DNA of 64,000 nt from Candidatus Methylomirabilis sp. (lineage in GTDB: Bacteria > Methylomirabilota > Methylomirabilia > Methylomirabilales > Methylomirabilaceae), in the NCBI RefSeq assembly GCF_028716865.1, contig NZ_JAQUOY010000008.1, forward strand, positions 1-64,000, given 5' to 3'. Made by a program: the position numbers and the translations under genes. Below the pieces are notes generated by a model. The model saw only the letters and a list, made by a program, of their open reading frames with translations, did not search any database and was not told where the DNA came from. Of the stretch, positions 42,004 through 61,290 are shown one piece after another. Positions within the stretch are counted from its first letter, which is position 1. The number at the start of each line of letters is the position of its first letter.

Positions 42004-42664
42004 GAGGCGGACGGCCAGAACACCGAAGGCTCGTGGCGTTCGCATCAGGTACCGCTCGGCGACATGGCCGACAACCCCGAACACCTCCGGCTCCTAGAGA
42101 AGTGGCTGAAGCGCTACCGGCCGGAGAAGCTCTTCGACGGGAACGGGGCACTGAGGCCCGAGTTGGCAACCCTCGCGCCAACGGGCGCACGCCGCATGGG
42201 CGCTAATCCCCACGCCAACGACGGCCTGCTGCTCAAGGGTCTGACGCTGCCCGACTTCCATGACTATGCTGTGGAGGTGACCAAGCCGGGTGTGCTGGTT
42301 GCCGAGGCGACACGCGTCCTCGGGGGCTTCCTACGCGACGTTATGAAACTCAACATGGACGCCCGAAACTTCCGGGTATTCGGTCCCGACGAGACCGCAT
42401 CAAATCGCCTCGGCGACCTCTTCGAGGCAACTGATCGGACCTGGATGGCCGAGACGCTGCCAGAGGACGACCACCTCGCGCCGGACGGCCGCGTGATGGA
42501 GATCCTGAGCGAGCATACCTGCCAGGGGTGGCTAAGGGGTACCTGCTCACCGGTCGCCACGGCCTCTTCTCCTGCTACGAGGCGTTCATCCACATCGTGG
42601 ACTCGATGTTCAACCAACACGTCAAATGGTTGAAGGTGTGCAATGAGATTCCTTGGCGGCGAGG
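42004..42664 (+). pseudogene. xfp: Phosphoketolase, internal fragment
   Basis: From [15 protein letters not shown] onward the sequence is a phosphoketolase: [71 protein letters not shown] one-base loss near 42535 shifts the frame; the match resumes as [16 protein letters not shown] and [17 protein letters not shown] and then stops at ~42664. N-terminal (thiamine diphosphate) and C-terminal thirds are absent. It is joined in frame to the ackA fragment upstream. Confidence 0.87.
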
Positions 42665-43259: not shown

Positions 43260-43292
43260 GTGTTCGGTCATGAGAGGGAGCAGGGCGAGATA

Positions 43293-43676
43293 GTGGAGAC
43301 CTCTGAGGCGATTAGGATCATTGAGGCGCTGGCCAATGGTGCAGACCCTGTTACCGGCGAACTGCTACCGGAATCGAGCCCCTATAATAACCCACAGGTC
43401 ATCAGGGCGCTGTTTCAGGCCCTCCAAGCTCTGGAACACCTTAATGAGAGAGGAAGGCGCCAGCGCACCCTCCCCCCTTATGCCGGAAAACCCTGGACCG
43501 AGGAGGAGGATCGCCTGCTCGCGGAAGCATTCGACGGCAGTGCCTCGTTGAAGGATCTCGCTCTGAAGCACGGTCGTACTGAAGGCGCCATAGCTGCCCG
43601 ACTTACTAAGCTTGGCAAAGTATCGGAACGCGCAGAGGCGTATGATCGCGCCGGAAACCCAGGCCAGGGAACATAG
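43293..43676 (+). CDS. Myb/SANT-like small DNA-binding protein
   Basis: About 127 residues. N-terminal part: EAIRIIEALANGADPVTGEL and PYNNPQVIRALFQALQALE. C-terminal helix-turn-helix: KPWTEEEDRLLAEAFD, SLKDLALKHGRTEGAIAARL, a Myb/SANT-like or GcrA-like arrangement. The family is common in bacteria, often near helicase genes, but its role is unknown. Start uncertain: GTG 43293 with a nearby AGGGCGAG, or GTG 43260. It is the first gene of the defence region and could be its regulator. Confidence 0.7.
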   Translation: METSEAIRIIEALANGADPVTGELLPESSPYNNPQVIRALFQALQALEHLNERGRRQRTLPPYAGKPWTEEEDRLLAEAFDGSASLKDLALKHGRTEGAIAARLTKLGKVSERAEAYDRAGNPGQGT

Positions 43677-43922
43677 CTTCAGCAGGAGCGCTACCGATTC
43701 TGCTTAAACTCCAGTCCACTTGTACCGACACGTGTTTTTGCGCAGTTGAATGCGGCAGGCAGGCGGCAAAGGGGCACTTGGCTGAGTGACGTGGCTACAA
43801 CACCTTGAACCTGGCAGCAATCCTCTCAGTGGCGGGGACATGAGTTGCGGAATGCGTCGACCAACGGCCTCTGGAGTACTGTGAAGAGACAGAATCAAGA
43901 AGGTAGGATTGAGGTAGGCAAC

Positions 43923-46900
43923 TTGGATAAAGACTTCGCCCCTGGTGACGTGGTCGCGGGGCTGGACGCGTCCGAACTCGTCGAGATTCAGCGGGTCGCC
44001 CCCTTCGGCGGTAAGACGCTCCTTGAGGGAGTCGGGCTTCAGTCCCGCCGACTGGTGAAGCGCCCCTTGGCCACGGAAGAGCTTGCAGCACTCGTCAAGG
44101 TACGCGGCGGGCAGCACACGTTCAACGGCGATGCCAGCCTCTTCCTTCTCTGCGCCGAGGCAGAACGTATCCGCATCGCTCACCAGTTTGATCCGCTCTT
44201 CGCCGTCAACTCCAGCATCGTTGACCCACTCCCGCATCAAGTGGAGGCGGTCTATCGGTACCTCCTCCCCTTGCCGAGAATCCGTTTCCTGTTGGCCGAC
44301 GACACAGGAGCGGGTAAGACGATCATGACTGGGCTCTTGATCAAGGAGCTGCTATTCCGGGGAGTGCTTCAGAAGGTCCTGATCATTGTTCCAGGCGGCC
44401 TGACGAAGCAGTGGAAGGAAGAGGAGCTCCAAGAGAAGTTCGGGCTTTACGCACGGCTCGTCAACCGCGCGTCCTTCGAAGCAGAACCGGGCCAGTTCTC
44501 CCGGTATGAAGACGGCATCTTCGTCACGTCCATCGATTTCCTGGCCCGTAATGAAGGCTGTCTCAAGGCCGCCGCTGAAACCCAGTGGGATCTCGTGGTG
44601 GTCGACGAGGCCCATAAGCTCTCGGCCTACGAGTACGGCACGAAGTTGGAAGAGAGCGAGCGGTACAAGGCGGTGAAGGCGCTCACTCGCAAAACTGACC
44701 ACCTCCTGTTCCTTACGGCGACTCCGCACCGCGGAAGAAAGGACACGTTCCGCCGGCTACTCCTGCTTCTCGATGAGGACCTCTTCCAGAAGGACGAGCA
44801 TGTTGCCGACCGGGTACGCGAGCAGGCGGCACCCTACGGCGCATCCAGCGAAGAAAACCTCGACACCGAGCGCCCGATCAGCAAGGCGCGGAATCGATTC
44901 TTCCTTCGTCGCCTGAAAGAGGAGATGGTTGATTGGGACAACCAAGCGCTCTTCAAGAATCGCCATACGAAGACGACCGGCTATGATCTGACACCGGAGG
45001 AAAAGATCCTCTATAACGAGGTGACAAGCTACGTTCGCTCAAAGCGCAAGGAGGCCAAGGCGAAGAAGAACCGGAACGTCGAGTTGACCCTCATGGTCAT
45101 GCAGCGCCGCCTGGCCAGCAGCCTCTACGCCATCACGCGGACCCTTGATAACCGACTCCGGGCTCTGAATGAGGTCCTCTCCATACTCAGAGATCCCAGC
45201 CGTTCAGAGGCGGAGAAAAAGCGACTGTTCCGGGAGACTCCAGACCCAAGCGATCCGCGGGATATCACAGAATACGAGGACCTGACCGAGGAGGAACGCG
45301 AGCGGGTCGACCGGCGGATCTTCCGCCAGGTCCTAACGGATGATCCGAACAAGGTCGAGGAAGAACGCGACGAAGTCGAACGGCTCTTCCGGCTGGCCGA
45401 CAGCCTAAAGCACCACAAGGAGGCGAAGTTTGTCGAGCTTCTCACCGTCTTGGATTCCTCCGATGTGATCCGAGCAGAGGATGAAAAGCTCCTGATCTTT
45501 ACCGAACACCGCGACACGCTCAACAGCCTTGCCAAGCGCCTCGAGGGAAAGGGGTACACCGTCGCTACGATCCATGGCGGCATGGACGTGGATACGCGCA
45601 AACAGGCCCAGCGCACGTTTCGCGCGCGGGCCAAGATCATGGTCGCCACCGACGCGGCAGGTGAAGGCATTAACCTTCAGTTCTGTCGCTACCTCATCAA
45701 TTGGGACATCCCGTGGAATCCCAACAGACTTGAACAGCGGATGGGGCGCATCCACCGGTATGGCCAGGCCGATGACGTGTGGGTCTACAACTTGGTTGCC
45801 AGCAATACTCGGGAGGGATCGGTCCTCCAGAAGATCCTCTCGAAACTGGACATCATGCGCGAACAGATGGGGTCTGACCGAGTCTACGACGTGATCGACG
45901 AGTGGCTGGAGGATGTGCCGCTGGTACGACTGATTGAAAGTGCCATTGATGCGGACGATGAATCGGCGAGTTCCAGAGACACCGACGTTGCGCTGGCGGC
46001 GGCATCACGCGAGAGGGCCGAGCAGCTCATGGCTATCCAGAAGAAGATCTCGCTTGCTTCACGCCTCGATTTGAGATCCGCCCGCGAGCTGCGCGACGCA
46101 TCGGACGAGCGCCGACTTCAGCCATTGTTTATCCAGCGGTTCTTTGAACGTGCGTGGACGGCAAGTGGGGGCACCGTCCGTAAGGACGATCACTGTCCGG
46201 TCTGGCACATCGGCTCTACGCCAACCGCCCTGCTCGAACTCGCCAGGGAGCAGCGACAGGCTCTATCCGAGAACTACGGTACTCCCTTCGTGTTCGACAA
46301 GCAGCTCGTGAGCGTCGCGAGCAAAGTGCGTACCCCTGAGCGCACGAAGCTCATGGGACCCGGGCACCCGCTGTTCGATACCCTAATCGAGTGGGCGATT
46401 CGTGAGGCGCGTCAAGCCTTTGCCAAAGGGGCAACCCTCGTGGACCCCAATATCGCCAAGCCACAGCGAGTCTGGCTCGTCCGTTCAACCATTGAGGATG
46501 GACGTCGGCAATGGCGTCAGGATCGTCGTAAGCCACCGGCCCATGAGCGGCTGGCCATAGTGGTTCACGACCATATGGGTCTTCGCACGACCTCACCGTC
46601 GTACTTGCTCAACTGTACGGCTCCGGAGGCTGCCATCCCGGTTCCCGATGTGGTATCGAAGTCCGCCGAGGAGATTCAGGCATGGGCCTACGAGCAGATC
46701 ACCGAGCGGCAGCTCGACCAGGTGACAACTATCCGCACTGAGGAGTGCGACCTGCGCCGGGAATACCTGAACACGGCCTTCACGGATCTTATCCTCGACC
46801 TGCAGGGAGAACTGAACGACCTTCAGCAGGCACTACTGTACGGCGACGACGATGCTCAGGAACGTGAGCGACTTCAACAGCGAGTTGAAGATCTGAAGGC

Positions 46901-47453
46901 TCGGAAGGTGGAACGGCTCAAGGAGTTGGAGCTTATGATGAAGTTGACCGCCAACCTTCCCGATCTTCTGACGGAGGCTGTGATCGCCCCGGTTCCTGTG
47001 GCGACGGTGGAAAGCGAGGAGGAGGCGCCGGCGAAAGGCTTCCCGATGCGCCGCGACGACGAAGTCGAGGCCATCGCGATGGATGTGGCTATGCGCTACG
47101 AGCGCAGTCGTGGATGGACGCCCACAGACGTGAGCCGGGATGGAGAGCACTACGACGTTCGATCTGAGGGGCCGGGTGGCGAGAAACGGTTCATCGAGGT
47201 CAAAGGCCGAGCCCAGTCGGGCGCTATCATCCTGACGGGTCCAGAATTGGACAAGTTGGGTCAGCTCGGCGAGCGGGCTTGGCTCTACGTCATTACCTTC
47301 TGCAAGGGTGAGCGGCCGCGGTTACGGATTATCCAAGACCCAATTTCGAAGCTCACCCCGGAGATGCTGTACCGACAGATCCAGTACCTCATTGAAGAGA
47401 ACGACTGGGCGGGACAGGGGGTTGAAGTCGCACCGGACGGATGGTCGGAATGA
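43923..47453 (+). CDS. SNF2-type superfamily 2 helicase with C-terminal DUF3883 domain
   Basis: ~1176 residues. Walker A LADDTGAGKTIMTGLL (~125), DEAH box VVVDEAHKLS (~226), motif III FLTATPH, C-terminal lobe TDAAGEGINLQFCRYLINWD and motif VI QRMGRIHRYGQ (~606). Coiled-coil-rich middle, then DUF3883, a restriction-endonuclease-like fold with RFIEVKGRAQSGAIILTG (~1095), and a 46-residue tail RPRLRIIQDPISKL... Similar helicases occur in DISARM (DrmD-like) and in the COG1743/COG1483 defence clusters. Start uncertain: TTG 43923 has GAGG 8 nt upstream; TTG 43845 and GTG 43881 are alternatives. The tail sequence reappears twice downstream. Confidence 0.9.
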   Translation: MDKDFAPGDVVAGLDASELVEIQRVAPFGGKTLLEGVGLQSRRLVKRPLATEELAALVKVRGGQHTFNGDASLFLLCAEAERIRIAHQFDPLFAVNSSIVDPLPHQVEAVYRYLLPLPRIRFLLADDTGAGKTIMTGLLIKELLFRGVLQKVLIIVPGGLTKQWKEEELQEKFGLYARLVNRASFEAEPGQFSRYEDGIFVTSIDFLARNEGCLKAAAETQWDLVVVDEAHKLSAYEYGTKLEESERYKAVKALTRKTDHLLFLTATPHRGRKDTFRRLLLLLDEDLFQKDEHVADRVREQAAPYGASSEENLDTERPISKARNRFFLRRLKEEMVDWDNQALFKNRHTKTTGYDLTPEEKILYNEVTSYVRSKRKEAKAKKNRNVELTLMVMQRRLASSLYAITRTLDNRLRALNEVLSILRDPSRSEAEKKRLFRETPDPSDPRDITEYEDLTEEERERVDRRIFRQVLTDDPNKVEEERDEVERLFRLADSLKHHKEAKFVELLTVLDSSDVIRAEDEKLLIFTEHRDTLNSLAKRLEGKGYTVATIHGGMDVDTRKQAQRTFRARAKIMVATDAAGEGINLQFCRYLINWDIPWNPNRLEQRMGRIHRYGQADDVWVYNLVASNTREGSVLQKILSKLDIMREQMGSDRVYDVIDEWLEDVPLVRLIESAIDADDESASSRDTDVALAAASRERAEQLMAIQKKISLASRLDLRSARELRDASDERRLQPLFIQRFFERAWTASGGTVRKDDHCPVWHIGSTPTALLELAREQRQALSENYGTPFVFDKQLVSVASKVRTPERTKLMGPGHPLFDTLIEWAIREARQAFAKGATLVDPNIAKPQRVWLVRSTIEDGRRQWRQDRRKPPAHERLAIVVHDHMGLRTTSPSYLLNCTAPEAAIPVPDVVSKSAEEIQAWAYEQITERQLDQVTTIRTEECDLRREYLNTAFTDLILDLQGELNDLQQALLYGDDDAQERERLQQRVEDLKARKVERLKELELMMKLTANLPDLLTEAVIAPVPVATVESEEEAPAKGFPMRRDDEVEAIAMDVAMRYERSRGWTPTDVSRDGEHYDVRSEGPGGEKRFIEVKGRAQSGAIILTGPELDKLGQLGERAWLYVITFCKGERPRLRIIQDPISKLTPEMLYRQIQYLIEENDWAGQGVEVAPDGWSE
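47313..47450 (+). repeat. Helicase-tail repeat T1 (parent copy)
   Basis: Last 46 codons of the helicase (RPRLRIIQDPISKL, EMLYRQIQYLIEENDW). Related sequences occur at 48823-48945 (T2) and 50958-51086 (T3), keeping I-x-DPISKL-x2-EMLYRQ-x-Q-Y/F-LV/I at the protein level and long identical DNA stretches such as GAGATGCTGTACCG. Confidence 0.88.
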
Positions 47454-48814
47454 TCGAAGGATTCCTGGCCCGTGACGAGGGTAAGACGCTGGAGTTCAAG
47501 GAGAACTGCCGCCCGCTCCAGGGTATCGTGCGGACTGCCGTCGCCTTTGCCAACACTGCGGGTGGTACTATTGTCATCGGCGTGAAGGACAAAACGAAAG
47601 AGGTGATCGGCATCGCTGATCCTCTGCTGAACGAGGAGCGGCTGGCCAATGCTTTTGCTGATGGCATCCGCCCGCTGCTGGTTCCCGACATCCAAATCCA
47701 CGCCTGGCGAAAGCGCCAACTGCTTGTTGTGACGGTGCCGCATGCTGTGGGACCGTTTTACGTCCGCTCCGAAGGGTCTGAAGCCGGTGTCTATATCCGG
47801 CTCGGATCGACCAACCGCCCGGCGGGACCGGAATTGCTCGCAGAACTCCAACGCCTGGCCCGAAACACGTTCTTTGACGAGCAACCCTGCTCGGAAACGA
47901 ACTCGGACGATATTGACGTCCGAGCAGCGTCCGAGTTCTTCGCGGCCGTCTCCAGACCGCTGAGCCCGGCAAAACAGCGGTCCCTGGGGCTGCTGGTGGG
48001 ACAAGGTACACGAGCAGTGCCGAGTATCGGAGCCGTACTCCTCTTCGGCAAGACGCGGGGGCGCCTGTTCCCCTCGGCTACGATACGCTGCGCGCGATTC
48101 CTCGGGAAGGACACAGCCAAGTTCCTGGATCAAACCGAGATTGATGAGTATCTGCCGAAGTCCGTGGACAGCGCGGTGGCGTTCATCGAGCGCCACACGC
48201 GGCAGGGCATCGAGATTGGGCGCGTTCGACGGCGCGACGTGCCGGAGTACCCGGTCGAGGCGGTGCGCGAGGCGATCATCAATGCTATCGTCCACGCCGA
48301 CTACAGCATTGGCGGGGCCGGTACGAAGATCGCCATCTTCGACGACCGGATCGAGATCACGAACCCTGGCTTGCTCCCGTTTGGACTGACGCTGGAGGCC
48401 GCTCTGGCAGGTGTCTCACGCCTCCGCAACCGCGTGATTGGCCGAACGTTCCGCGAACTGGGACTCATCGAGCAGTGGGGCTCAGGTCTCGGACGGATCA
48501 CGGTCGCCTGCGCAAACGCCGGCCAGCCTGCCCCGCGATTCGAGGAACTGGGCACCAACTTCCGGGTCACCTTGTTCGGGGAGCGCGTGAAGGCTCCAGC
48601 GCAGCCGGAGTGGCAGTCTGAGTTGCTGGGGTACCTCGCGAAGAAAAATCGAATCTCCACTCGGGTGGCCGGAGAGTTGTGGAAGATTCCCGACCGTACG
48701 GCAAGAAGGCGCCTGCGCCGACTGGTTGATGACGGGCTGCTTGTCGAGGTTGGCAGCGGTCCCAAGGACCCGTACCGTGCGTACGTGTTGAGGGAAGAGA
48801 GGCGTGGCCGATGA
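47450..48814 (+). CDS. AlbA_2 (Schlafen-like) / HATPase_c_4 protein
   Basis: 454 residues. N-terminal AlbA_2 domain: TLEFKENCRPLQGIVRTAVAFANTAGG, of which LEFKEN and AFANTAGGTIVIGV are diagnostic. The central part ends with a GHKL-type fold: YPVEAVREAIINAIVHADYS and IEQWGSGLGRI. The C-terminus is a winged helix (ISTRVAGELWKIPDRTARRRLRRL). Often annotated as transcriptional regulators or RecG-like; the AlbA_2 fold occurs in nucleases of the Schlafen family. ATG 47450 overlaps the helicase stop (ATGA). Could be operon regulator or effector. Confidence 0.87.
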   Translation: MIEGFLARDEGKTLEFKENCRPLQGIVRTAVAFANTAGGTIVIGVKDKTKEVIGIADPLLNEERLANAFADGIRPLLVPDIQIHAWRKRQLLVVTVPHAVGPFYVRSEGSEAGVYIRLGSTNRPAGPELLAELQRLARNTFFDEQPCSETNSDDIDVRAASEFFAAVSRPLSPAKQRSLGLLVGQGTRAVPSIGAVLLFGKTRGRLFPSATIRCARFLGKDTAKFLDQTEIDEYLPKSVDSAVAFIERHTRQGIEIGRVRRRDVPEYPVEAVREAIINAIVHADYSIGGAGTKIAIFDDRIEITNPGLLPFGLTLEAALAGVSRLRNRVIGRTFRELGLIEQWGSGLGRITVACANAGQPAPRFEELGTNFRVTLFGERVKAPAQPEWQSELLGYLAKKNRISTRVAGELWKIPDRTARRRLRRLVDDGLLVEVGSGPKDPYRAYVLREERRGR

Positions 48815-48822
48815 GGAGAGGT

Positions 48823-48948
48823 ATGATCCACGATCCCATCTCGAAGCTCAACCCGGAGATGCTGTACCGGCAGTTGCAGTTCTTGGTTGACGAGAGCAAC
48901 TGGCAACGCTACGAGATCGAGGCAGGAAATGGCAAAGAACATTCATGA
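48823..48948 (+). CDS. 41-aa free-standing copy of the helicase tail (T2)
   Basis: ATG 48823 with RBS GAGGAGAGG starts a 41-codon frame: MIHDPISKLNPEMLYRQ, QFLVDESNWQRYEIEAG, ending NGKEHS. Residues 3-28 are homologous to the helicase C-terminus at 47313-47450. It begins 8 bp after the AlbA_2 gene and its 3' part overlaps the start of the HD gene. Either a scar of an exchanged or deleted helicase gene, or a real small protein. Conservation of frame and RBS favours translation, but function is unknown. Confidence 0.6.
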   Translation: MIHDPISKLNPEMLYRQLQFLVDESNWQRYEIEAGNGKEHS

Positions 48949-50296
48949 GATTCGGGACCCGATCCACGTATTTGTGAGGCTGGATTCACACGAGCGTCAG
49001 GTCCTTGACTCACGTCCGTTCCAGCGTCTTCGGCATATCCACCAGCTAGCGTTGTCTCACCTCGTATACCCGGGGTGCACACACAGGCGTTTCGAACACT
49101 CGCTCGGTGTTATGGAGCTAGCCGGTCGCGTCTTCGATGTCATTACACAACAAGACGCAATAACCGATGAGATTAAGCAACAGCTTCCCCAGATATCTTG
49201 TACGGATGCGCTTGCTTACTGGAAACGTGTTCTGCGGATGGCCGCTCTCTGTCATGACATTGGCCACTTGCCTTTCTCGCATACATCGGAAGACCTTCTC
49301 CCAGCGGGCTGGACTCACGAAATCCTGACGGCGGAGATCATCAAGAGTGCAGAGATGCAGGATATCTGGCAGAACATGACGCCACCGCTCCGGGCTGAGG
49401 ACATCGTCAAGCTAGCAATCGGCCCGAAGAAAGCTGCTAAGGTTGGGGTTAAGGCGTTCTCCGATTGGGAAGCAATTCTCGCTGAAATCATCGTTGGGGA
49501 TGCTTTCGGCGTGGACCGAATGGACTATCTTCTTCGAGATTCGTATCACGCTGGTGTAACCTATGGCAAGTTTGACCACTATCGCTTGATCGATACGTTG
49601 CGTATTCTTACACCGCCGCCAGTTAAGAAAACGGAGCGGATGGAGGCTGAAGGGCGATCAGCAGACGACAGCAAGGAAGTAATGCTGGGGATAGAGGTCG
49701 GTGGTCTACATTCAGCCGAGTCACTTCTGTTGGCGCGGTACTTTATGTTTATGCAGGTCTATTGCCACCCGGTACGCCGCATCTATGATATCCACCTACG
49801 GGATTTCCTTAAAGAGTGGCTACCGCACAGTACCTTCAGCACAGACATCGAACAACACTTAGCCATGACGGATATCGAAGTCATGCACGCTCTGCGCGGC
49901 GCTTGTTGTGACGAGGCAATTGCGGGCCATAAGCACGCAAAGCTCATCCTGCACCGGAAACACTTCAAGGTTCTATACGCAAGGAACCCAGACGACACAC
50001 AAAAGAATCCCGACGCAGTTGCCACCATTCACACAGCTGTTAGCGAGCGTTTTGGTGAAGCGAACGTCAGAATAGACACTTATACTCAGAGCGGAGGAGC
50101 ACCTGAGTTCCCAGTGCTAGAGAATGACGGACGTATTGTATCGTCACTGGCGGAGTCGCAACCCTTGAGGAACCTACCTGTTGTTGCAACGGGTTACGTC
50201 TTTATCAACCGGGATTGTCGAGAAAAGGCCAAGGTGTGGCTTGAAGGGAATCGTGACGATATCCTCGCGAAACAGGAGGGGGAGGAGGAAGGATGA
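48929..50296 (+). CDS. HD-domain phosphohydrolase (SAMHD1/dGTPase-like, COG1078)
   Basis: 455 residues. IHEIRDPIHVFVRLD and RLRHIHQLALSHLVYPGCTHRRFEHSLG include the first metal His (written here as HLVYPGCTHRRFEHS). Then MAALCHDIGHLPFSH holds the HD pair, and DAFGVDRMDYLLRDSYHAG the last Asp. Such enzymes hydrolyse dNTPs or other nucleotides; dNTP depletion is a known anti-phage strategy. ATG 48929 follows GGCAGGA. It is followed by a 4-bp overlap with the next gene, and the two form one cargo unit between tails T2 and T3. Confidence 0.9.
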   Translation: MAKNIHEIRDPIHVFVRLDSHERQVLDSRPFQRLRHIHQLALSHLVYPGCTHRRFEHSLGVMELAGRVFDVITQQDAITDEIKQQLPQISCTDALAYWKRVLRMAALCHDIGHLPFSHTSEDLLPAGWTHEILTAEIIKSAEMQDIWQNMTPPLRAEDIVKLAIGPKKAAKVGVKAFSDWEAILAEIIVGDAFGVDRMDYLLRDSYHAGVTYGKFDHYRLIDTLRILTPPPVKKTERMEAEGRSADDSKEVMLGIEVGGLHSAESLLLARYFMFMQVYCHPVRRIYDIHLRDFLKEWLPHSTFSTDIEQHLAMTDIEVMHALRGACCDEAIAGHKHAKLILHRKHFKVLYARNPDDTQKNPDAVATIHTAVSERFGEANVRIDTYTQSGGAPEFPVLENDGRIVSSLAESQPLRNLPVVATGYVFINRDCREKAKVWLEGNRDDILAKQEGEEEG

Positions 50297-50844
50297 GCAT
50301 GAAACCGAGGCAAAGGCAAGCCGTATTGTTGCAACTGGTCAATGGCATGAGTGAGCATGGTAGTTGGTGCGGAGAGACTCATGTGCAGAAGGCGGCCTAT
50401 TTTTTGAAAGAACTCACAGCAATTCCACTGGAACTGGATTTCATTCTCTACAAACATGGCCCGTTCTCATTCGATTTGCGGGATGAGCTAACGGCTATGC
50501 AGGCCGATGGGTTACTGCAAATGCGCATTCAACAGCCGCCATATGGTCCCTCGTTGAAGCCAACGAACAATGGAGAGGAGCTTATGCGCCGCTGGCCAGT
50601 GACGCTGAAGCGAAATCATAAGCGGATCGAGTTTGTGGCAAATCGTCTCGGTCCACTTAGAGTGACGGAGCTTGAGCGCCTAGCAACGGCGCTCTACGTC
50701 ACGAAGGAAGATCCTGGGATGGATGCTGAGACACGTGCCCAGCGCGTCAATGCGCTAAAACCACATGTATCTGTAATGGAAGCACGGACAGCGATTAATG
50801 CTATTGACGATATGATCAAGGAATGTCCAAGTACAATGGCATGA
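50293..50844 (+). CDS. YwgA/SocA-like (Panacea-type?) small protein
   Basis: 183 residues: THVQKAAYFLKELTAIPL, DFILYKHGPFSFDLRDELTAM, LKPTNNGEELMRRW. The 'KL/VQK..Y...F..Y.(H/Y)GPFS..L...l..l' pattern is that of YwgA and SocA/DUF4065-like proteins, which act as antitoxins or proteolytic adaptors in some systems. ATG overlaps the HD stop; its own stop overlaps the start of the 82-aa chimeric gene (ATGA). A role controlling the HD enzyme is a reasonable guess, not shown. Confidence 0.65.
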   Translation: MSMKPRQRQAVLLQLVNGMSEHGSWCGETHVQKAAYFLKELTAIPLELDFILYKHGPFSFDLRDELTAMQADGLLQMRIQQPPYGPSLKPTNNGEELMRRWPVTLKRNHKRIEFVANRLGPLRVTELERLATALYVTKEDPGMDAETRAQRVNALKPHVSVMEARTAINAIDDMIKECPSTMA

Positions 50845-51089
50845 ACAACGACTGTCCCCACCTGATCGAGGTGGCGCTTCCGATGCGGGAGATCTCGGCG
50901 GAGAGTGTGCATCAGAGGAAGGCGCAGCGTGGGCACATCTCGGCATTACACCTTTGGCGGCCGCGGTTGCGCATTATCCGGGACCCCATCTCGAAGCTCA
51001 ACCTGGAGATGCTGTACCGGCAAGTCCAGTACCTGGTTGAAGAGGAAGACCGGAGCCGACAGGGTATTGTCGTGCAGGAGGTGCCGTGA
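50841..51089 (+). CDS. 82-aa chimera: methylase N-terminus fused to helicase tail (T3)
   Basis: Residues 1-39 (CPHLIEVALPMREISAESV, GHISALHLW) are homologous to the first 39 residues of the DUF1156 methylase at 52868 (CPRLIEVALPIREISAESV, AHISHLHIW). Residues 40-82 (RPRLRIIRDPISKL, EMLYRQVQYLVEE) are homologous to the helicase C-terminus at 47313. ATG overlaps the preceding stop and the stop overlaps the GTG of the next gene, so it is fully built into the operon. A clean in-frame deletion product of a methylase...helicase gene set is the simplest origin; retention suggests it may be translated. Confidence 0.8.
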   Translation: MNNDCPHLIEVALPMREISAESVHQRKAQRGHISALHLWRPRLRIIRDPISKLNLEMLYRQVQYLVEEEDRSRQGIVVQEVP

Positions 51090-52249
51090 GCGAAAAGTCG
51101 AAAGACGTAAAGCGGTTTTCCAAGATTGTGCTTGAGAACTGGAAGAATTTTGCGCGTGTTGAAGTACCACTCCAGCGGCGCGTTTTTCTAGTGGGGCCGA
51201 ACGCTTCAGGAAAATCAAACTTTCTCGATGTATTCCGATTCCTGGGTCATCTGGCGTCTCCAGGCGGAGGTTTTCGAGAAGCCATCATGCGGCGCGGTGG
51301 CGTCAGCGCCATTCGGTGTCTGGCGGCGAGGCGCTATCCTGACGTTGCGGTCAGCGTAATCGTTGAGGCGGGCGACGGATCGGCGAGATGGGAATACGAA
51401 TTGAGGTTTTACCAAGATAATCAGCGCCGGCCGCTTGTCCGCAAGGAGAAAGTGATTCTGGACGGGAACGTACTGCTGAATCGCCCTGACGAAGATGATA
51501 AGAAAGACCCGGAGCGCTTAACCCAGACGCACTTGGAGCAGGTCAACGTGAACCGATCATTTCGAGAGATTGTGAGCTACTTCGAGTCGGTACGTTACCT
51601 GCACATCGTTCCGCAGCTCGTGCGGGAACCAGATCGCTCGGTGGGGCGACCCAACGACCCATATGGTGGAGACTTCCTGGAACAGTTGGCGAAAACGCAG
51701 GAGCGCACCAGAATGGCGCGTCTAAGGCGTATTCAGGATGCACTTCGTGTGGCCGTCCCGCAGCTCAAGGAGATCGAGTTGTGGCGTGATGCTCGGGGCA
51801 CACCGCATCTGCGCGGCAAGTATGAGCACTGGAGACCCCAAGGAGCATGGCAGACCGAGGAGCAGTTCTCGGACGGTACTCTACGACTGATGGGGCTTCT
51901 CTGGGCCGTGATGGAAGGTAGTGGTCCGGTCTTGCTTGAGGAGCCCGAGCTTTCACTCCATCCCGAAATCGTGCATTTTCTTCCGCAGATGTTCGCCCGC
52001 GTTCAACGACGAACGGGGAAACAGATCATCCTGAGCACCCACTCGCCGGACTTGCTCCGGGATGAGGGAATCGGGCTCGACGAGGTGCTATTGCTAAGCC
52101 CCAGCCTGGAGGGAACTGCGGTCAGGCCTGCAAGCGACTTCGACGAAATACGCCACCTTCTCGAGGGCGGGGTGACGCTTGCCGAGGCTGTGATCCCCAA
52201 GACCCGGCCGGAGAAGGCGGAGCAACTGTCGCTCTTTGGGGATCTTTGA
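51086..52249 (+). CDS. RecF/OLD-like AAA ATPase
   Basis: 387 residues, AAA_15/AAA_21 type. IVLENWKNFARVEVPL, Walker A VGPNASGKSNFLD (~36), signature-like FSDGTLRLMGLLWAV (~261), Walker B VLLEEPELSLHP (~283) and STHSPDLL (~317). ABC-type dimerising ATPases of this kind pair with TOPRIM nucleases in OLD, Gabija and PARIS-like systems; the next gene is such a partner. Start GTG 51086 overlaps the chimeric gene. Probably senses DNA ends or a phage trigger and activates the nuclease. Confidence 0.88.
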   Translation: MSEKSKDVKRFSKIVLENWKNFARVEVPLQRRVFLVGPNASGKSNFLDVFRFLGHLASPGGGFREAIMRRGGVSAIRCLAARRYPDVAVSVIVEAGDGSARWEYELRFYQDNQRRPLVRKEKVILDGNVLLNRPDEDDKKDPERLTQTHLEQVNVNRSFREIVSYFESVRYLHIVPQLVREPDRSVGRPNDPYGGDFLEQLAKTQERTRMARLRRIQDALRVAVPQLKEIELWRDARGTPHLRGKYEHWRPQGAWQTEEQFSDGTLRLMGLLWAVMEGSGPVLLEEPELSLHPEIVHFLPQMFARVQRRTGKQIILSTHSPDLLRDEGIGLDEVLLLSPSLEGTAVRPASDFDEIRHLLEGGVTLAEAVIPKTRPEKAEQLSLFGDL

Positions 52250-52250
52250 T

Positions 52251-52871
52251 ATGGCCGGGGAGTTCGTCGTCACGGCTGCGGTGGAGGGAATCGTTGATGA
52301 AGCAGTGGTGCGCACACTACTCAACCATGTCGGCGTGACTCCCGGAGATGTCCACGGAAAGAACGGCAAGGCGCATTTGTGTCAGAGGATTCCAGGCTAC
52401 AACAACGCGGCACGCCATGCGCCCTGGATCGTTCTCGTTGATCTTGACCGCGATGCCGACTGCGCACCACCATTGCGACGCGCTTGGCTGTCCCACCCCG
52501 CACCTTATATGTGCTTCCGCGTCGCGGTCCGGGCTGTGGAAGCATGGCTACTCGCGGATGGTGAGCGCATAGCCTCGTTTCTACGGGTGGCCAGGCAAAG
52601 GATTCCAACCGACCCGGAAGGCTTGGAGAATCCCAAAGAGACGATGGTCAACCTTGCGCTTCAATCGAGGCGACGGGACGTGCGAGAAGACATGGTTCCT
52701 CGTCCCGGCAGCGGCAGGTCGGTAGGTCCCGCCTACTCGTCACGACTCATCGAGTTCGCTGCGAATTACTGGCGCCCGCAAGTCGCCGTCGAGCAATGTG
52801 ACAGTTTGAGACGGGCTACCGAATGTTTGACGCGGCTCGCGCGAGAATGGTCATCACGGAAGAATGCATGA
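52251..52871 (+). CDS. TOPRIM-like (DUF4276-type) partner of the ATPase
   Basis: 206 residues. FVVTAAVEGIVDEAVVRTLL carries the conserved Glu of TOPRIM folds (written AAVEGIVDEAV), and WIVLVDLDRDADC the DxD; VRAVEAWLLADGE follows, as in DUF4276 proteins. Expected to cleave DNA or RNA, or to act as effector under control of the ATPase 1 bp upstream. ATG 52251 has GGGGA 8 nt before it. Its stop overlaps the methylase ATG. Confidence 0.72.
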   Translation: MAGEFVVTAAVEGIVDEAVVRTLLNHVGVTPGDVHGKNGKAHLCQRIPGYNNAARHAPWIVLVDLDRDADCAPPLRRAWLSHPAPYMCFRVAVRAVEAWLLADGERIASFLRVARQRIPTDPEGLENPKETMVNLALQSRRRDVREDMVPRPGSGRSVGPAYSSRLIEFAANYWRPQVAVEQCDSLRRATECLTRLAREWSSRKNA

Positions 52872-55834
52872 CCGAATTTTGCCCGCGCCTGATTGAGGTA
52901 GCGCTGCCGATTCGGGAGATCTCCGCTGAGAGCGTGCGGGACAAGAACATTCACCATGCCCACATCAGCCACTTGCACATCTGGTGGGCTCGCCGGCCCT
53001 TGGCGGCTTCACGCGCGGTGGTGTTCGCCTCTCTGGTTCCCGATCCGGACGATCCCCAGTGCCAGGCGGACTTCCGGGCGGCCGTCGAGCGCCATCTCAA
53101 AACGCATGTGCCCTCGGAACTGAAGCACTACCGGCGTGGCCGAGAAACCCGCCGGGACGAGGACCCTTACCGTCCCTACGACGGCATGCCGGATACGCTG
53201 CGGAACCGGCTCCTGATGTTCATCGCCAAGTGGTCCCCGGAGTCCCTGGCGTTCGATGCCGGAAAGCGACAGAACGCTGCCCCGCCTAAGGAACTCCTCG
53301 ACGACCGCTCGCTGGTGAAGTGGGAGACCTCTGATCCCGAGAACAATCAGGGTCAGGAAGTTCTTCGGATTGCTCGTGACCTCGTGAGGATCGCCCATGG
53401 CGGGAGGACGCCAAGCGTTCTGGACCCCTTTGCCGGCGGCGGGGCGATTCCGTTGGAAGTAGGACGGCTCGGTTGCCGGGCCCTCGCCAATGACTATAAC
53501 CCCGTCGCGCATCTGATCTTGCGGGCCACGTGTGAGTTCCCGCAGAAGTACGGCAAGCCAGGCAAGAGGAAGGCACTGGTCGAGGAGTTCGGTAAGAAGG
53601 TCGAGCGAGAAATCGACGTGCCGAACGTCCTCGTACATGACTTGGAGACATGGGCGAACTGGGTTCTGGAGAGCACGCGGCGGAAGATCGAGCATCTGTA
53701 CCCTGCTGGCAAGGACGGCCGCCCCGCCCTTGCCTACCTATGGGCGAGGACGGCTCCCTGCTCCAATCCTTCGTGTCAGGGCCAGATCCCGTTGATGCGT
53801 AGTCTTGTCGTGTGCAGCAAGGGCAGCAAAACCGCGCTCACGATGAACGTGGACAAGGCGCGAAAGGAGGTCTGCTTCGGCGTCGCCAAGGGTAAGGCCA
53901 TCAAGCGGACGGAGGGAACGAAGCGGGAACGGGGCCCTGCGATCTGCCCGTTCTGCGAGCAGCCGACCTCTGAAGGGGAGATTCGCGCGGCGGGCCGGGC
54001 TGGCAGAATGGGCGAACAGATGATGGCTGTAGTTGTCCAGGGAAAGGGCGAGAAGCACTATCGGGCGGTCGAGGACGCCGACCTCCGTGCGGTGATCACG
54101 GCGCAGACAATTCAGACGGCTGGCCCCGGGGAGTACGTAATCCCTGAGATCACGGGGCCGAACGCCTCGGCCGATGCCGGCGGGCACGCAAGCATTCGAG
54201 TGCAGCTCTACGGCTTTACCCGCTGGGGTCAGCTCTTCAGCCATCGCCAGCTCGTGGTCTTGGACCACTTGGTGAAGGGCCTTCATCAGGCCGTTGCGGA
54301 GATGGAGCGGACGATTCCAGACCTCGAGTATCGGCGTGCGGTTGCCACATACTTAGCTCTTTGGATCGACCGCATTGCCGCGTTCGGAAACACGTTTACG
54401 CGCTGGCGTGCAAGCCACGAGAAGAGTGAGACGCCATTCAGCGGTCAGTCGATCCCGATGATGTGGGACTACCCGGAGGTAAACCCGTTTGCTGACTCTT
54501 CCGGTACCGCCTCGACACAGCTCGCGTATATGCTCAGGGTTGTCTCCCATGAGCAGACGCACGATTTCGTGCCCACCCCTCGCGTTATCTTAGGGTCAGC
54601 GGCGAAGATGGGCGCTGTCGAGTCCTTGTCGTCCGACTGCGTTGTTACCGATCCTCCCTACGGAAACTCGATCGCGTACGCTGATCTTGCTGACTTCTTC
54701 TACGTGTGGTTGAAGCGCAGCCTCGGCGATCTATGGCCAGACCTGTTCCGTACACCCCAGACGCCGAAGGACGAAGAGACGACGAGCCACAAGCACCGCC
54801 ACAATGGTTCTCAAGAACGCGCCAACGTGTTCTACCGACGTCTCCTCACGGAGAGCTTCAGGGAAAGCAAGCGGGCGGCCAAGGATCCGAAACTCGTCAC
54901 GATCATGTTCGCGCACCAGTCCACGGATGCCTGGACTGCTTTGCTGTCCGCACTCTTTGACGCAGGGCTCTCGCCTGATGCGACGTGGCCGATTGCGACG
55001 GAGATGCTCAACACTGCTCTCGCTTTGGGCACCGCGTCGTTGGAGACATCGGTGACCGTTGCCTGCCGCCCGCGGGTTGTTGGGAGCGCAATTGCCTTCA
55101 AACAGGTTCGGGTGGAGATCGAAGATGTCGTGAAGCGCTCCGTGAAACGGTTCTGGTCTTACGGCTTTCGGGGCGCTGACCTTATCGTCGCCTGCTACGG
55201 CCCCGCAGTCGGTGTCTTCGGAAAGTACGAGCGGGTGGAGAAGGCCGACGGTACGCCCGTAGGGATTCCCGAACTTCTGGAGCTTGCTAAGCAGGCGGCA
55301 CGAGATGCCATCGCGGGTGAGTTCCGTGGCGATAATCTCTCCACGCTCTACTACGTCTGGGCCAATCTTTACGGCGCGGCGGAGCAAGCGTGGGATGACG
55401 CCAGGCTGGTCGTACAGATTGGGGGAGAAGAAGATAACGCCATGGAGATCGCCCGCGGGCACGGGATCTTTGTGGTGGATGGTTCCCGGTGCCGACTTGC
55501 CCTTCTCGAAGACCGTGCCAGCCGCCGAGGGCTGGGCATCGATCAGAACCCGCCCCATATCGATGCGCTCCATCGGAGCATGTTCTTCTGGAAGGAAGAA
55601 AAGCGCGGGGAGCTGGTCGATTATCTCGCCGAGCGTGACCTCTTGGAGGACGGCCCGTTCTGGAAACTGGCACAGGCGCTCTTCGAGGTCCTCCCCCGCG
55701 ATTTGGAGGACTGGAAACTGGTCAACGCCCTGCTCGGTGAGCGCCAGACACTGCGAGCTGAGGGCAAGCGTACGGCGTTCAGAAACGCGCAACGGGATCT
55801 GTCCTTCGACGAAGGAGGTGAAGAACGATCATGA
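52868..55834 (+). CDS. DUF1156 adenine-specific DNA methylase (COG1743)
   Basis: 988 residues. The N-terminal DUF1156 part (IEVALPIREISAESV, HIWWARRPLAASRAVV) is followed by SAM-binding motif I DPFAGGGAIPLE (~185), a zinc-finger-like insertion (CSNPSCQG..., CPFCEQPT), and catalytic DPPYGNSIAYADLADFF (~594), typical of N6-adenine methylases. Modifies host DNA or marks self in predicted anti-phage clusters with DUF499 and SNF2 helicases. ATG 52868 overlaps the preceding stop; the 3' end overlaps DUF499. Its first 39 codons are duplicated at 50841. Confidence 0.92.
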   Translation: MTEFCPRLIEVALPIREISAESVRDKNIHHAHISHLHIWWARRPLAASRAVVFASLVPDPDDPQCQADFRAAVERHLKTHVPSELKHYRRGRETRRDEDPYRPYDGMPDTLRNRLLMFIAKWSPESLAFDAGKRQNAAPPKELLDDRSLVKWETSDPENNQGQEVLRIARDLVRIAHGGRTPSVLDPFAGGGAIPLEVGRLGCRALANDYNPVAHLILRATCEFPQKYGKPGKRKALVEEFGKKVEREIDVPNVLVHDLETWANWVLESTRRKIEHLYPAGKDGRPALAYLWARTAPCSNPSCQGQIPLMRSLVVCSKGSKTALTMNVDKARKEVCFGVAKGKAIKRTEGTKRERGPAICPFCEQPTSEGEIRAAGRAGRMGEQMMAVVVQGKGEKHYRAVEDADLRAVITAQTIQTAGPGEYVIPEITGPNASADAGGHASIRVQLYGFTRWGQLFSHRQLVVLDHLVKGLHQAVAEMERTIPDLEYRRAVATYLALWIDRIAAFGNTFTRWRASHEKSETPFSGQSIPMMWDYPEVNPFADSSGTASTQLAYMLRVVSHEQTHDFVPTPRVILGSAAKMGAVESLSSDCVVTDPPYGNSIAYADLADFFYVWLKRSLGDLWPDLFRTPQTPKDEETTSHKHRHNGSQERANVFYRRLLTESFRESKRAAKDPKLVTIMFAHQSTDAWTALLSALFDAGLSPDATWPIATEMLNTALALGTASLETSVTVACRPRVVGSAIAFKQVRVEIEDVVKRSVKRFWSYGFRGADLIVACYGPAVGVFGKYERVEKADGTPVGIPELLELAKQAARDAIAGEFRGDNLSTLYYVWANLYGAAEQAWDDARLVVQIGGEEDNAMEIARGHGIFVVDGSRCRLALLEDRASRRGLGIDQNPPHIDALHRSMFFWKEEKRGELVDYLAERDLLEDGPFWKLAQALFEVLPRDLEDWKLVNALLGERQTLRAEGKRTAFRNAQRDLSFDEGGEERS

Positions 55835-58683
55835 GCGAAAACCTGAAACCCTGGTACGCCGTTGCGACACCTCACGAGGACATCCGCGAAGGACGTCTCG
55901 CAGAGGCCGTCTTCGCCGCGAACGTCTGGGCGGTCGTCCAGGGCACCGCGCCGGAGGTTTACCTTGACCCCGAGGAGTTCTTCCGCAAAACGTATCTGAC
56001 GACCGGACTGTCCACCGTCCTGAATCGGGTCGCGGGGGCGCTGCGACGCGGCGGGGAGACCGGAGACCGCATTATCAGTCTGCAGACTGCCTTCGGCGGC
56101 GGCAAAACGCACACGCTCGTTGCCTTGTGGCATCTGGCGAAACATGCGGATCGGTTGAAGGCGTCACCTCACGCGGAGGGACTTCGGAAGGCCGTCGGCG
56201 GGCGACTGCCGGAGAAGGTGAAAGGCGTTGCCGTCTTTACGAACCAGACCTGCGATGCCACCCAGGGACGTAAGGCCCCAGAAGGCATTCACCTACGCAC
56301 GTTGTGGGGAGAGTTGGCGTTCCAGCTTGGTGGAAAGGCTCTCTACGAACGTGTGCGGGCGAACGATGAGAGCCAGCGCGTGCCGCAGGGGCTCTTCTTC
56401 GAGGTTCTGCAGGCCGCTTCCCCGTGCCTGATCCTGCTCGACGAGTTGGCGGACTACTGCGTGGGGGCGGCGGCGGTACCGGTCGGCGATACAAGCCTGG
56501 CGGATCAGACCGTCTCCTTTATCCAGCAACTGACCGAGTCCGTGCAGCAAGTCCCGGGCGCGGTCGTGGTCGCCACGCTGCCGGCGAGCAAGTACGAGGT
56601 CGCCCAGAGTGAGAAAGGACAGGAGGCCTTCGTAACGCTGGAGAAGCGCTTCCAGCGCCTCGGAGCCGACATCAAACCGGTCTCCGACGAGGAAATCTAC
56701 GACGTCGTCCGCGCTCGTCTGTTCGAGTCCATCGCGCCAGACAGCGAGTCGGACTATCCGAAGAAGGTCGCCCAGGTCTATCAGGGGATGTACGCGGCCC
56801 ACGCCGGAGAGGTGCCCTCGGAGGTCGCGAGGAACACGTACCGCGAGCAGCTCCAGCGGGCTTATCCATTTCATCCGCTGCTCATCGATGCGCTGTATAC
56901 CCGCTGGGGCAGCCATCCTGACTTTCAGCGAACGCGGGGCGTATTGCGACTGCTCGCGAGTATCGTCGGCGACCTCTGGAAGCGCCGCCAGGGGAATACC
57001 GAAACGCAGCACTTAATCCAGCCGTGTCATGTCCATTGGTCCGTCGATGCTCTGCAGGCGGCTCTGACACGCCTATGGGGGCCGCCGTACCAATCCGTTG
57101 CCGCTGCAGATGTGATTGGGGAGCGGTCGAATGCCGGTATCTTCGATGAGGAGCGTGGCGGCGACTATCGGAGCGAGGCTATTGGGCAAGGGCTGGCATC
57201 CGCCATACTCCTTGGCTCCTTCGGCGGTCAGGGCGGTCGGAGCGGGTTTAGCTCCAAGGATCTGAAACTGGCGTGCTCCCGGCATGGTCTGAACTGGAAC
57301 TATGTCGATGGGGCCTTGCTGGAGTTGGAGAACCGCAGCTTCTACCTCCACACGACTTCGGCCGGAAGCCTGGGTAAACGCTATTGGTTCGGTACGAAAC
57401 CCGCACTCACCATGTTGGTGGTTCAGTACCGCCAGCAGATGGCCAAGGAGAACTTCGAGGAAGAGATCCTGGAAGACCTGCGGGCCGAGGCACAGAAGGG
57501 CGCATTGGCTGGGGCCACATGGCGTGTGATCGTCAACCCAGCGAAGGATCTGCCGGAGCAGAAGTCGCTGACCCTTCTGATTTTACCGCCGTCGCTGGCC
57601 TGGGACGAGAACGGGGGTACCAAGGAGGCGATCCGTGAACATGTCAAGTCGATCAGTCTCCGGTGCGGAGCAAAGGATCGCATCTATCGTAACACCCTTC
57701 TCTTTCTGCTGGGAACTGTTCGGGGGCTCAATAAGCTGCGGCAAGTCCATCGAGAGTGGACAGCCCTGGATGGGGTACGGACGGACTACTGGGGACAGCT
57801 TGACGAAGAGCAACGCGAGGATCTCGGGAGGCGTCTGGACGCAGCACGGCGGGCTACCATGGAGGCGCTGGGTCCCGCGTACACGGTTGCTCTGCGAGTA
57901 CGCGGACACGAGGTAGAGGCGTGTTCGCTTTCTGATGCGCGGCGTACCTTGCAGGAACACCTCGGCTATCTGTGGACGACGCTCGTCGAGGATGAGGAAT
58001 GGATTCTGCGAAGCGTCGGCTCGGTGACGTTGGAGAGTACGGGCCTGATCCCGAAGGAAGGCGGATTACGATTGAAGGATGCTGTTGAGGCCTTCCTGCG
58101 GTTTACCGACAAGCCGATGGTCGCGACTAGGGAAGCGGTGACGACCGGGCTCGCGCAAGCCTGCGCTGATGGACTGGTAGGCGTCGGTCGTGGTGGGAGC
58201 CTCTCGACGCTCCTCGCCCGGTACTGCAAGGAATCGGTCTCACTGGACCCGAGCGAGGATGGTCTCTGGATCATCCCGCCGTTTACACCGGAGCCGGCGA
58301 AGTATCCAGAGAGCGCAGAGGCTACAGGCGCCAGAGTCGGTACCGGAGAATCTGGTGCTATAGGAGGAATAAGCCCAGACGCGGCCAGCAGGGACACCTC
58401 GGGAACGGCCATCGCGGCGAAGGGCGGGGTCAAGAGCACCGTTCGGCGGTTCGTTGTCCGCGGTAACGTTCCGATCGAAAACTGGGGGGAGCTCTTCCGA
58501 TGCTTCGTCGGGCCTGCTGCGCGGATGAACCTCAAGAAGCTCCACTTGGGCGTGCAGTTCGAAATGGAGCTTCCTGAGGGAGGGACGTTGAGCGAGAACG
58601 ATCCGGCATTGAAGGCGATGAAGGAAGCCGCACGGCAACTCGGACTTGCATTAGAAGTATTGGAGGCCGAATTTGATAGGTAG
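55831..58683 (+). CDS. DUF499 AAA+ ATPase (COG1483)
   Basis: 950 residues. Walker A TAFGGGKTHTLVALW (~86), Walker B CLILLDELADYC (~201), and VVVATLPASKYE; the large C-terminal part is helical with a likely winged helix and the final RRFVVRGNVPIENWGELFR. DUF499 proteins accompany DUF1156 methylases in predicted defence systems, as BREX BrxC-like ATPases do in BREX. Start ATG overlaps the methylase stop. Last gene of the operon; its stop codon sits inside a hairpin. Confidence 0.9.
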   Translation: MSENLKPWYAVATPHEDIREGRLAEAVFAANVWAVVQGTAPEVYLDPEEFFRKTYLTTGLSTVLNRVAGALRRGGETGDRIISLQTAFGGGKTHTLVALWHLAKHADRLKASPHAEGLRKAVGGRLPEKVKGVAVFTNQTCDATQGRKAPEGIHLRTLWGELAFQLGGKALYERVRANDESQRVPQGLFFEVLQAASPCLILLDELADYCVGAAAVPVGDTSLADQTVSFIQQLTESVQQVPGAVVVATLPASKYEVAQSEKGQEAFVTLEKRFQRLGADIKPVSDEEIYDVVRARLFESIAPDSESDYPKKVAQVYQGMYAAHAGEVPSEVARNTYREQLQRAYPFHPLLIDALYTRWGSHPDFQRTRGVLRLLASIVGDLWKRRQGNTETQHLIQPCHVHWSVDALQAALTRLWGPPYQSVAAADVIGERSNAGIFDEERGGDYRSEAIGQGLASAILLGSFGGQGGRSGFSSKDLKLACSRHGLNWNYVDGALLELENRSFYLHTTSAGSLGKRYWFGTKPALTMLVVQYRQQMAKENFEEEILEDLRAEAQKGALAGATWRVIVNPAKDLPEQKSLTLLILPPSLAWDENGGTKEAIREHVKSISLRCGAKDRIYRNTLLFLLGTVRGLNKLRQVHREWTALDGVRTDYWGQLDEEQREDLGRRLDAARRATMEALGPAYTVALRVRGHEVEACSLSDARRTLQEHLGYLWTTLVEDEEWILRSVGSVTLESTGLIPKEGGLRLKDAVEAFLRFTDKPMVATREAVTTGLAQACADGLVGVGRGGSLSTLLARYCKESVSLDPSEDGLWIIPPFTPEPAKYPESAEATGARVGTGESGAIGGISPDAASRDTSGTAIAAKGGVKSTVRRFVVRGNVPIENWGELFRCFVGPAARMNLKKLHLGVQFEMELPEGGTLSENDPALKAMKEAARQLGLALEVLEAEFDR

Positions 58684-61282: not shown

Positions 61283-61290
61283 GACCATCA

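Follow-up and report, generated by a model that had tools for sequence, protein, structure and literature searches.

Displaced hmaA and hmaB gene ends between cargo genes as probable scars of module stacking in Hma defence operons

The Hma operon of Candidatus Methylomirabilis sp. (assembly GCF_028716865.1, contig NZ_JAQUOY010000008.1), studied here in a stretch of 64,000 nucleotides (positions 1 to 64,000, forward strand; hereafter the window), holds three related copies of the 3' end of its helicase gene hmaA: the native end (T1), a short free open reading frame (ORF) (T2), and the second half of a chimeric ORF (T3). T2 and T3 are very probably scars of module stacking in the operon and not genes with a function of their own. 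The stacking of stretches that each consist of an hmaA 3' end, cargo, and an hmaB 5' end, derived from different Hma loci, is well supported, and a stacking event may have joined the DNA by homologous pairing on one side only, in an Hma gene common to both loci, and without homology on the other. The evidence consists of the scars themselves, their near-restriction to two gene ends, their recurrence in operons with unrelated helicase tails, and the homology that continues from tail into cargo with loci carrying an intact hmaA.

All three core genes of the PADLOC models, hmaA, hmaB, and hmaC, are present in the window in that order, with three cargo sets between hmaA and hmaB: an AlbA_2/HATPase_c_4 gene, a pair of HD and YwgA-like genes, and the embedded pair HEC-01A/B. 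The resulting order, T1 - AlbA_2 - T2 - HD - YwgA-like - T3 - HEC-01A - HEC-01B - methylase - DUF499, agrees in Pfam and PADLOC with the module layout described in the first-pass annotation of this DNA, except that its TOPRIM label for HEC-01B is without a Pfam match. The features are as follows.

43845-47453, plus strand: hmaA, SNF2-type helicase with a C-terminal NOV_C domain (PADLOC HmaA PDLC00659, E 2e-189; Pfam SNF2-rel_dom, Helicase_C, NOV_C)
47313-47453, plus strand: T1, the 3' end of hmaA, with the AlbA_2 start codon (47441) inside it (repeat and peptide searches)
47441-48814, plus strand: cargo module 1, AlbA_2/HATPase_c_4 protein of 457 aa (Pfam SLFN_AlbA_2, E 4e-21, and HATPase_c_4, E 7.5e-25; 94% to sister genome G004)
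48811-48948, plus strand: T2, short ORF, a free hmaA tail whose start shares ATGA with the AlbA_2 stop and which also overlaps the start of HD (repeat and peptide searches, sequence)
48929-50296, plus strand: cargo module 2a, HD-domain protein, dGTPase-like (Pfam HD, E 1.5e-8, and HD_assoc_2, E 4e-12; PADLOC dGTPase, E 8e-8); the start at ATG 48929 is our reading of the sequence, the Pfam and PADLOC matches being given from 48938
50293-50844, plus strand: cargo module 2b, labelled YwgA-like in the first-pass annotation, DarG-model-like (PADLOC DarG, E 5e-12; no match in a Pfam search)
50841-50957, plus strand: left part of T3, hmaB 5' end of 39 codons, whose start overlaps the YwgA-like stop (ATGA) (Pfam DUF1156, E 1.4e-6; PADLOC HmaB model, E 1.1e-6; match to an HmaB N-terminal window)
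50958-51089, plus strand: right part of T3, an hmaA 3' end that continues the reading frame of the hmaB part and whose stop overlaps the HEC-01A start (GTGA)
51086-52249, plus strand: cargo module 3a, HEC-01A, AAA ATPase (PADLOC PDLC04180, E 1e-162; Pfam AAA_21)
52236-52871, plus strand: cargo module 3b, HEC-01B, the gene with the TOPRIM-like label (PADLOC PDLC04194, E 3e-67; no match in a Pfam search)
52823-55834, plus strand: hmaB, DUF1156 DNA methylase (PADLOC HmaB, E 4e-126; Pfam DUF1156, E 1e-21)
55831-58683, plus strand: hmaC, DUF499 ATPase (PADLOC HmaC, E 6e-131; Pfam DUF499)

The three tails had been recognised in the first-pass annotation, and the repeat search bears this out with a single 113-nt direct-repeat family at 47312-47424 (T1), 48807-48919 (T2, 70%), and 50957-51069 (T3, 81%). 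Their proteins share 16 columns that are identical in all three, including the strings DPISKL and EMLYRQ, and the T1 peptide matches nothing else in the window's whole genome at E <= 10 (E 1.0e-23, 1.2e-13, and 4.9e-10 for T1, T2, and T3). T2 is indeed a free tail ORF, with 45 codons counted from an ATG at 48811 overlapping the stop of AlbA_2; the 41-aa version at 48823-48948 reported earlier starts at the second ATG. T3 is a chimera as proposed, and consists of an hmaB start fused in frame to an hmaA end. Both of its borders are of the usual kind, with cargo meeting hmaB on the left and hmaA meeting cargo on the right.

The comparison was extended to other Hma loci (numbered L; genomes are numbered G) from sets with one genome per species, among them metagenome-assembled genomes (MAGs). 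From 154 loci examined, 147 had an HmaA C-terminal ORF and 144 had the hmaA stop inside the stretch; hmaB was found downstream in 126, of which 92 had an hmaA-hmaB gap of more than 150 nt. They include loci from 115 further stretches taken from the phyla of G107 (Chloroflexi, 69) and G110 (Acidobacteria, 46), where HmaA was matched at E 1e-70 in 92/350 and 56/347 genomes, respectively; most fragments and loci with little downstream DNA were left out there.

Tail and cargo are shared as one piece with other loci. Among alignments overlapping the tail zone, the free tail and cargo of L141 match L139, where this cargo stands behind an intact hmaA, over 1809 uninterrupted nt at 90.4%, beginning 192 nt before the hmaA stop. 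The window's T3 and HEC-01 pair match L043 over 1811 uninterrupted nt (70.4%), beginning at the T3 joint, 131 nt before the hmaA stop, and L057 matches L040 from tail into cargo over 1675 uninterrupted nt (69.9%), from 132 nt before the stop. The resident hmaA of L141 is 92.6% identical to that of L139 until 46 nt before its stop and then differs; behind it lie a SIR2-like gene, a HerA-type gene (Pfam), a divergent hmaB start (64%), the L139-like hmaA end, and a GmrSD/AlbA_2 gene. The free tail scores 112 bits with the HmaA of L139 vs 82 with that of its own locus and adjoins the hmaB start. The incoming piece in L141 seems, from these alignments, to have been cargo plus hmaB start, the free tail being the displaced native one; a donor for this insert was sought and none was found. 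Similarly, the free tail of L029 scores 100 bits with the HmaA of L191 vs 86 with its own, and its first cargo (AAA_14/DUF4143) aligns together with the hmaB start in one piece with L191 (66%). For the tail copies in L021 and L143, the best-scoring HmaA is that of the same locus. As in displacement arrays, fragments of core-gene ends that lie at the borders of modules match core genes of other loci.

The copies come almost entirely from two gene ends. When 60-aa windows of each HmaA were compared with the DNA downstream of its own gene, extra copies appeared in 9/144 loci for the C-terminus, then in 4 and 1, and in 0-2 elsewhere (matches at offsets 870-900 were rejected, as they trace to L030, where the HmaA frame extends into unrelated upstream sequence); the C-terminal count is 7/131 without the window and 12 tail-selected loci. 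HmaB windows compared with the hmaA-hmaB interval gave 7/92 and 6/91 at the N-terminal offsets and 0-2 elsewhere, with 6/83 for the N-terminus outside the selected loci; matches at internal offsets in L124, L039, L142, and L174 were not counted as scars. With all ends set against all intervals at 33 bits, HmaA ends matched in 8 loci (L051 being an HmaA frameshift artefact, rejected as a scar, and the L025 copy falling below the cut and left out) vs 1, 0, 0, 0, 0, and 0 for six internal windows, with none on the minus strand. The HmaB starts matched in 7 loci, vs 1, 3, 3, 3, 1, 2, and 0 for seven internal windows, so that the HmaB contrast is weaker than that of HmaA; the single minus-strand match is in L159, a locus that contains another hmaB-type gene and gives matches to all HmaB windows.

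Fusions of an hmaB start to an hmaA end occur in four loci (window, L029, L033, and L141), all in frame, which has a chance of 1 in 81. Other joints hold one partner: hmaB starts without an hmaA end in L023, L154, and L209, and joints without an hmaB start in T2 and L050. In L023, three hmaB starts are present; in two cases the start falls on the stop of the preceding ORF. A frameshifted hmaB start nearly identical to the locus's own hmaB was observed at positions 21-162 behind hmaA in L154, before a 1423-aa ORF; this hmaB start directly behind hmaA is the mirror image of tail displacement. The trapped hmaB starts of T3, L029, L192, and L209 end near a motif HxSTLHxW, cases too few to separate a breakpoint preference from chance.

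A scan with the tail found 18 loci (17 MAGs and one isolate) in many phyla, going by record titles, and in six of them, L041, L050, L054, L057, L047, and L056, a tail stands outside a full hmaA. Second tail copies lie behind AlbA_2-type genes in L041 and L050, that of L050 preceding a DarT gene (Pfam), and a tail copy also follows AlbA_2 in L054. L057 carries a frameshifted hmaA tail before a UvrD-like gene (2999-3292) on a contig without hmaA or hmaB; its tail is fused to what we take to be a radC-start-like sequence, so that genes from outside Hma may also be trapped on the left. L047, with a tail beside an AlbA_2-gene fragment and no hmaA before it, is perhaps a decayed locus and was excluded from the evidence. 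The same cargo types occur singly in other loci: hmaA - HEC-01 in L043 and L046 (before hmaB) and in L055 (where the contig ends), hmaA - AlbA_2 - hmaB in L048 and L051, hmaA - UvrD - hmaB in L040, and hmaA - UvrD remnant - hmaB in L042. The expectation that homologous loci hold different cargo at the same place, with free tails between modules, was borne out in this collection. A shared string of the form AL(K/Q)RALxxxPSExxQSS was also seen after AlbA_2-type genes at L019 9751-9801, L041 2055-2105, and L054 669-719.

In the window's own phylum (95 genomes), the T1 peptide matched only the window genome and G004; a tail profile matched 6 of 392 genomes in the phylum of G103, five of them already known and one weak; the tail peptide gave no match in plasmids; and in viral contigs, neither 38 pattern matches for HmaA nor 9 for the tail profile included a relative. 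Searching each HmaA end against its own locus revealed extra copies in L021, L025, L029, and L033, whose tails are unrelated to DPISKL. Therefore, an independent DPISKL domain family is disfavoured as the source of the tails. The earlier view of a modular anti-phage locus exchanging effectors at a fixed sequence survives in part: tails do border the cargo modules, but a fixed swap site is not supported, since several unrelated HmaA tails behave alike and DPISKL is only one of them, the copies in the three best cases begin at different distances from the hmaA stop, and hmaB 5' ends are trapped about as often as hmaA ends. In the sister genome G004, moreover, the same hmaA (98%, interrupted there) and AlbA_2 gene are present, and similarity falls from ~95% to ~60% at window position 48621, inside AlbA_2 and not at a tail, from which it may be read that a recent exchange can break inside cargo. 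T2 was not found in the G004 locus, where a UvrD-like gene follows that presumably runs into transposase-like sequence.

Scars were also related to the length of the hmaA-hmaB gap. Without the window and eight tail-selected loci, 83 loci with a gap > 150 nt remained, and scars were found in 8/21 with gaps of at least 3 kb vs 1/62 with shorter ones (P = 4e-5). Several points weigh against the stacking interpretation or limit its reach. The 3-kb cut was picked after seeing the gaps, and at 2 kb the counts are 8/34 vs 1/49 (P = 0.003); 13/21 long-gap loci have no detectable scar. The scars are unevenly spread and commoner near the window's own phylum, with self matches in 5/14 loci there (L021, L023, L025, L029, and L033), 2/67 and 3/46 in two other phyla, and 0/4 in plasmids. 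A follow-up set of 20 loci from the phyla of G096 and G102, out of 57 stretches chosen, gave no tail copy, and its only long-gap locus had no scar; hmaB-start scars were present in 2/14 of its loci with gaps > 150 nt (L209 and L210), both with gaps < 2 kb, so the follow-up confirms recurrence for hmaB starts, not the link to gap length. Joints of unrelated genes were seen; no joint has both parents at high identity, and the parents are too diverged for micro-homology to be read. In addition, an HD/YwgA pair directly behind an hmaA was sought among the loci examined and none was found. In the window, T3 may be a displaced native tail, judging from its synonymous divergence (dS), because it is nearer to T1 (dS 0.55) than to the L043 tail (0.76). 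The ratio of non-synonymous to synonymous divergence (dN/dS) is 0.16-0.58 for pairs with free tails, a range that overlaps that of intact tails (0.08-0.32), and therefore proves neither constraint nor its loss and is indecisive as a test of peptide function. Finally, the left flank of L056 matches the stretch just 5' of the L046 hmaA (97 nt, 73%). In L056 (1050-3043), an hmaA-upstream stretch runs straight into the final 97 nt of hmaA, behind which HEC-01A/B lie (about 90-91% to L046), with no hmaB found after the pair on this short contig; given the left flank, hmaA was probably deleted in place, and L056 was rejected as a stacking scar or as a module that had left its locus.

With the hmaA of L160 set forward, a second pair of HD and YwgA-like genes (51% and 36% identity) occupies 6490-8311 on the opposite strand, near this Hma locus. 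This occurrence makes the pair seem, from its gene neighbourhood, a module of its own.

Stacking would proceed as follows. Hma loci would meet through gene transfer, and recombination between loci with different cargo would append one stretch of hmaA 3' end, cargo, and hmaB 5' end to another. One complete hmaA, hmaB, and hmaC would be retained, while a short hmaA-end piece, an hmaB-start piece, or both fused would stay between the modules, T3 representing an hmaB-start::hmaA-end joint and T2 an hmaA end attached immediately after AlbA_2. Presumably, a joint is favoured if it leaves a short reading frame that connects the stop of the preceding cargo with the start of the following one, since the starts of cargo genes lie on or within the hmaA end and the overlapping stop and start codons suggest translational coupling. 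By our reading, the carried hmaA-end piece may also keep the start region of the cargo, since cargo starts overlap that end. A wider version of this idea, in which Hma operons are open cargo arrays that take modules from any other Hma locus by recombination at the two inner gene ends, with in-frame hmaB-start::hmaA-end pieces as translational bridges coupling each appended module to the previous one, is tentative and rather less probable than its negation; the L141 fusion has stops in its hmaB part, which speaks against a universal open bridge.

The closest competitor to serial stacking is a variant of it, by which two complete Hma operons stood head to tail and a deletion from the first hmaB start to the second hmaA end fused their cargo sets, leaving the same scars by another event. 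It would explain the hmaB-start::hmaA-end fusions in one step, and some genomes do have Hma genes close together: in G008 (contig C8, about 157-179 kb), two hmaA genes in divergent orientation are separated by ~15 kb; in G549, one strand carries two hmaA genes ~47 kb apart; and in L095 (8156-15311), two hmaB-type genes are adjacent. Only 12/164 regions have more than one match to a core gene, however, 10 of them apparently because a frameshift splits the gene, the other two (L095 and L159) with additional hmaB-type genes; 0/164 regions hold two separate hmaA genes in the stretch read, and tandem operons alone leave unexplained the joints that carry a single gene end. This course of events is unlikely, with about one chance in four left to it by our estimate.

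That the tails are a selected family of small proteins mimicking the HmaA C-terminus, the alternative offered in the first-pass annotation, is improbable. The copies in T2, T3, L029, L033, L041, L050, and L054 are in open frames, the four fusions keep the frame, and dN/dS is below 1, as such a family would have it; operons with unrelated tails copy their own tail type, however, the copies in L025, L057, and L143 carry stops or frameshifts, the upstream parts of the small ORFs vary, and trapping extends to methylase starts. Still less probable is that the hmaA end was duplicated locally in tandem with no cargo imported: this would suit T3 being nearer T1 and T2 (dS 0.51 to the latter) than the L043 tail, and the own-HmaA scores of the L021 and L143 copies, but the copies in L141 and L029 score best with foreign HmaA genes, the homology extends to cargo that other hmaA genes have behind them, and an hmaB start forms the first part of T3. 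Least credible of all is site-specific integration into the hmaA 3' end, in the manner of islands in tRNA genes that leave a displaced 3' end, which the L141 break 46 nt before the hmaA stop and the L139-like end behind new cargo would fit, but against which stand the lack of a fixed core repeat (copied lengths of 131, 132, and 192 nt before the stop), the absence of a recognised integrase among the window's cargo genes (Pfam and PADLOC; cargo of other loci annotated in part), and the trapped hmaB starts, the fused hmaB piece lying outside any such site.

The DNA around the window's operon carries further features. Just 5' of hmaA, a 138-aa ORF (43260-43676, plus strand) had no match in Pfam or PADLOC; its C-terminal half, which we take to be helix-turn-helix-like, would make it a possible regulator. 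At the left edge of the defence region, an ORF at 41752-42633 (plus strand) presumably has an acetate kinase-like beginning and a phosphoketolase-like continuation, with the look of a fused pseudogene, and this area is also matched by the G004 locus (L019 15890-16063, opposite strand). On the other side, genes for a PD-(D/E)XK nuclease and a Rad52/22 family protein lie at 59131-63721 (minus strand), together with a weak DprA-type match below the Pfam cut-off and an ORF at 61394-61894 (minus strand) that we assume to be RadC-like; these minus-strand genes look like mobile-element or plasmid-type DNA.

The Hma system and auxiliary nucleases near it are described in passages of two papers (PMC8565338; PMC12839542), the latter of which, from 2026, groups Hma with the BREX-related DUF499 systems (Type-1 DUF499-centred) and mentions an HmaA helicase with a role in phage defence shown elsewhere. 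That Hma loci can hold cargo is already known, because HEC is spelled out as 'Hma embedded candidates' in a table of PMC10855318. The window shares with the Hma and HEC entries of PADLOC the same core genes and order, cargo inside the operon, and HEC-01A/B as a named pair. It differs in that the passages on Hma and HEC in these papers make no mention of core-gene-end copies at module borders or of the route of cargo gain, and the main text of PMC12839542 nowhere uses the word 'recombination'. Likewise, searches of open-licence literature listed no paper that, judged by title or the start of the abstract, describes such gene-end scars in a defence operon.

Closer parallels come from toxin loci. 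For the type VI secretion system (T6SS) immunity arrays of Vibrio cholerae, homology-facilitated illegitimate recombination was proposed by Kirchberger et al. (PMC5361080); as far as their account of the arrays goes, modules are likewise added at a shared gene, older ones are pushed downstream, and a displaced effector 3' end is mentioned. What accumulates there, however, are immunity genes behind one active effector, while in Hma entire defence modules are stacked in the space between two core genes, whose ends on either side are both trapped and in some cases fused. The orphan cdiA-CT/cdiI modules, in the relevant part of their description (PMC3150448), similarly show gene-end fragments with varying upstream homology before mobile modules, matching full-length genes elsewhere. 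The fragment there is the toxin itself, whereas in Hma it is the edge of a core gene and the cargo consists of separate genes. The same likeness and difference would hold for the C-terminal displacement of rhs genes, reportedly the subject of work by Jackson in 2009. Hma loci may thus be displacement arrays, as known from Rhs, contact-dependent inhibition (CDI), and T6SS loci, in a new form.

The gain of modules by defence operons is usually inferred from gene content alone, and the Hma joints hold a readable record of it: which gene end was trapped, which type of Hma locus it came from, and which cargo came along. Such scars allow embedded defence modules to be found without prior knowledge, acquisitions to be ordered within a locus, and donors to be sought across phyla, and they are a warning for annotation, as small ORFs of the T2 and T3 kind probably represent joints rather than genes. 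The same scar type in unrelated bacteria points to a general way for Hma operons to gain defences. If the open arrays with translational bridges are real, this would be an integron-like but integrase-free stacking of anti-phage modules that could be read across whole genomes by its scars, and the scars suggest that a defence operon may serve as a landing platform for other defences, as Rhs and T6SS loci do for toxins.

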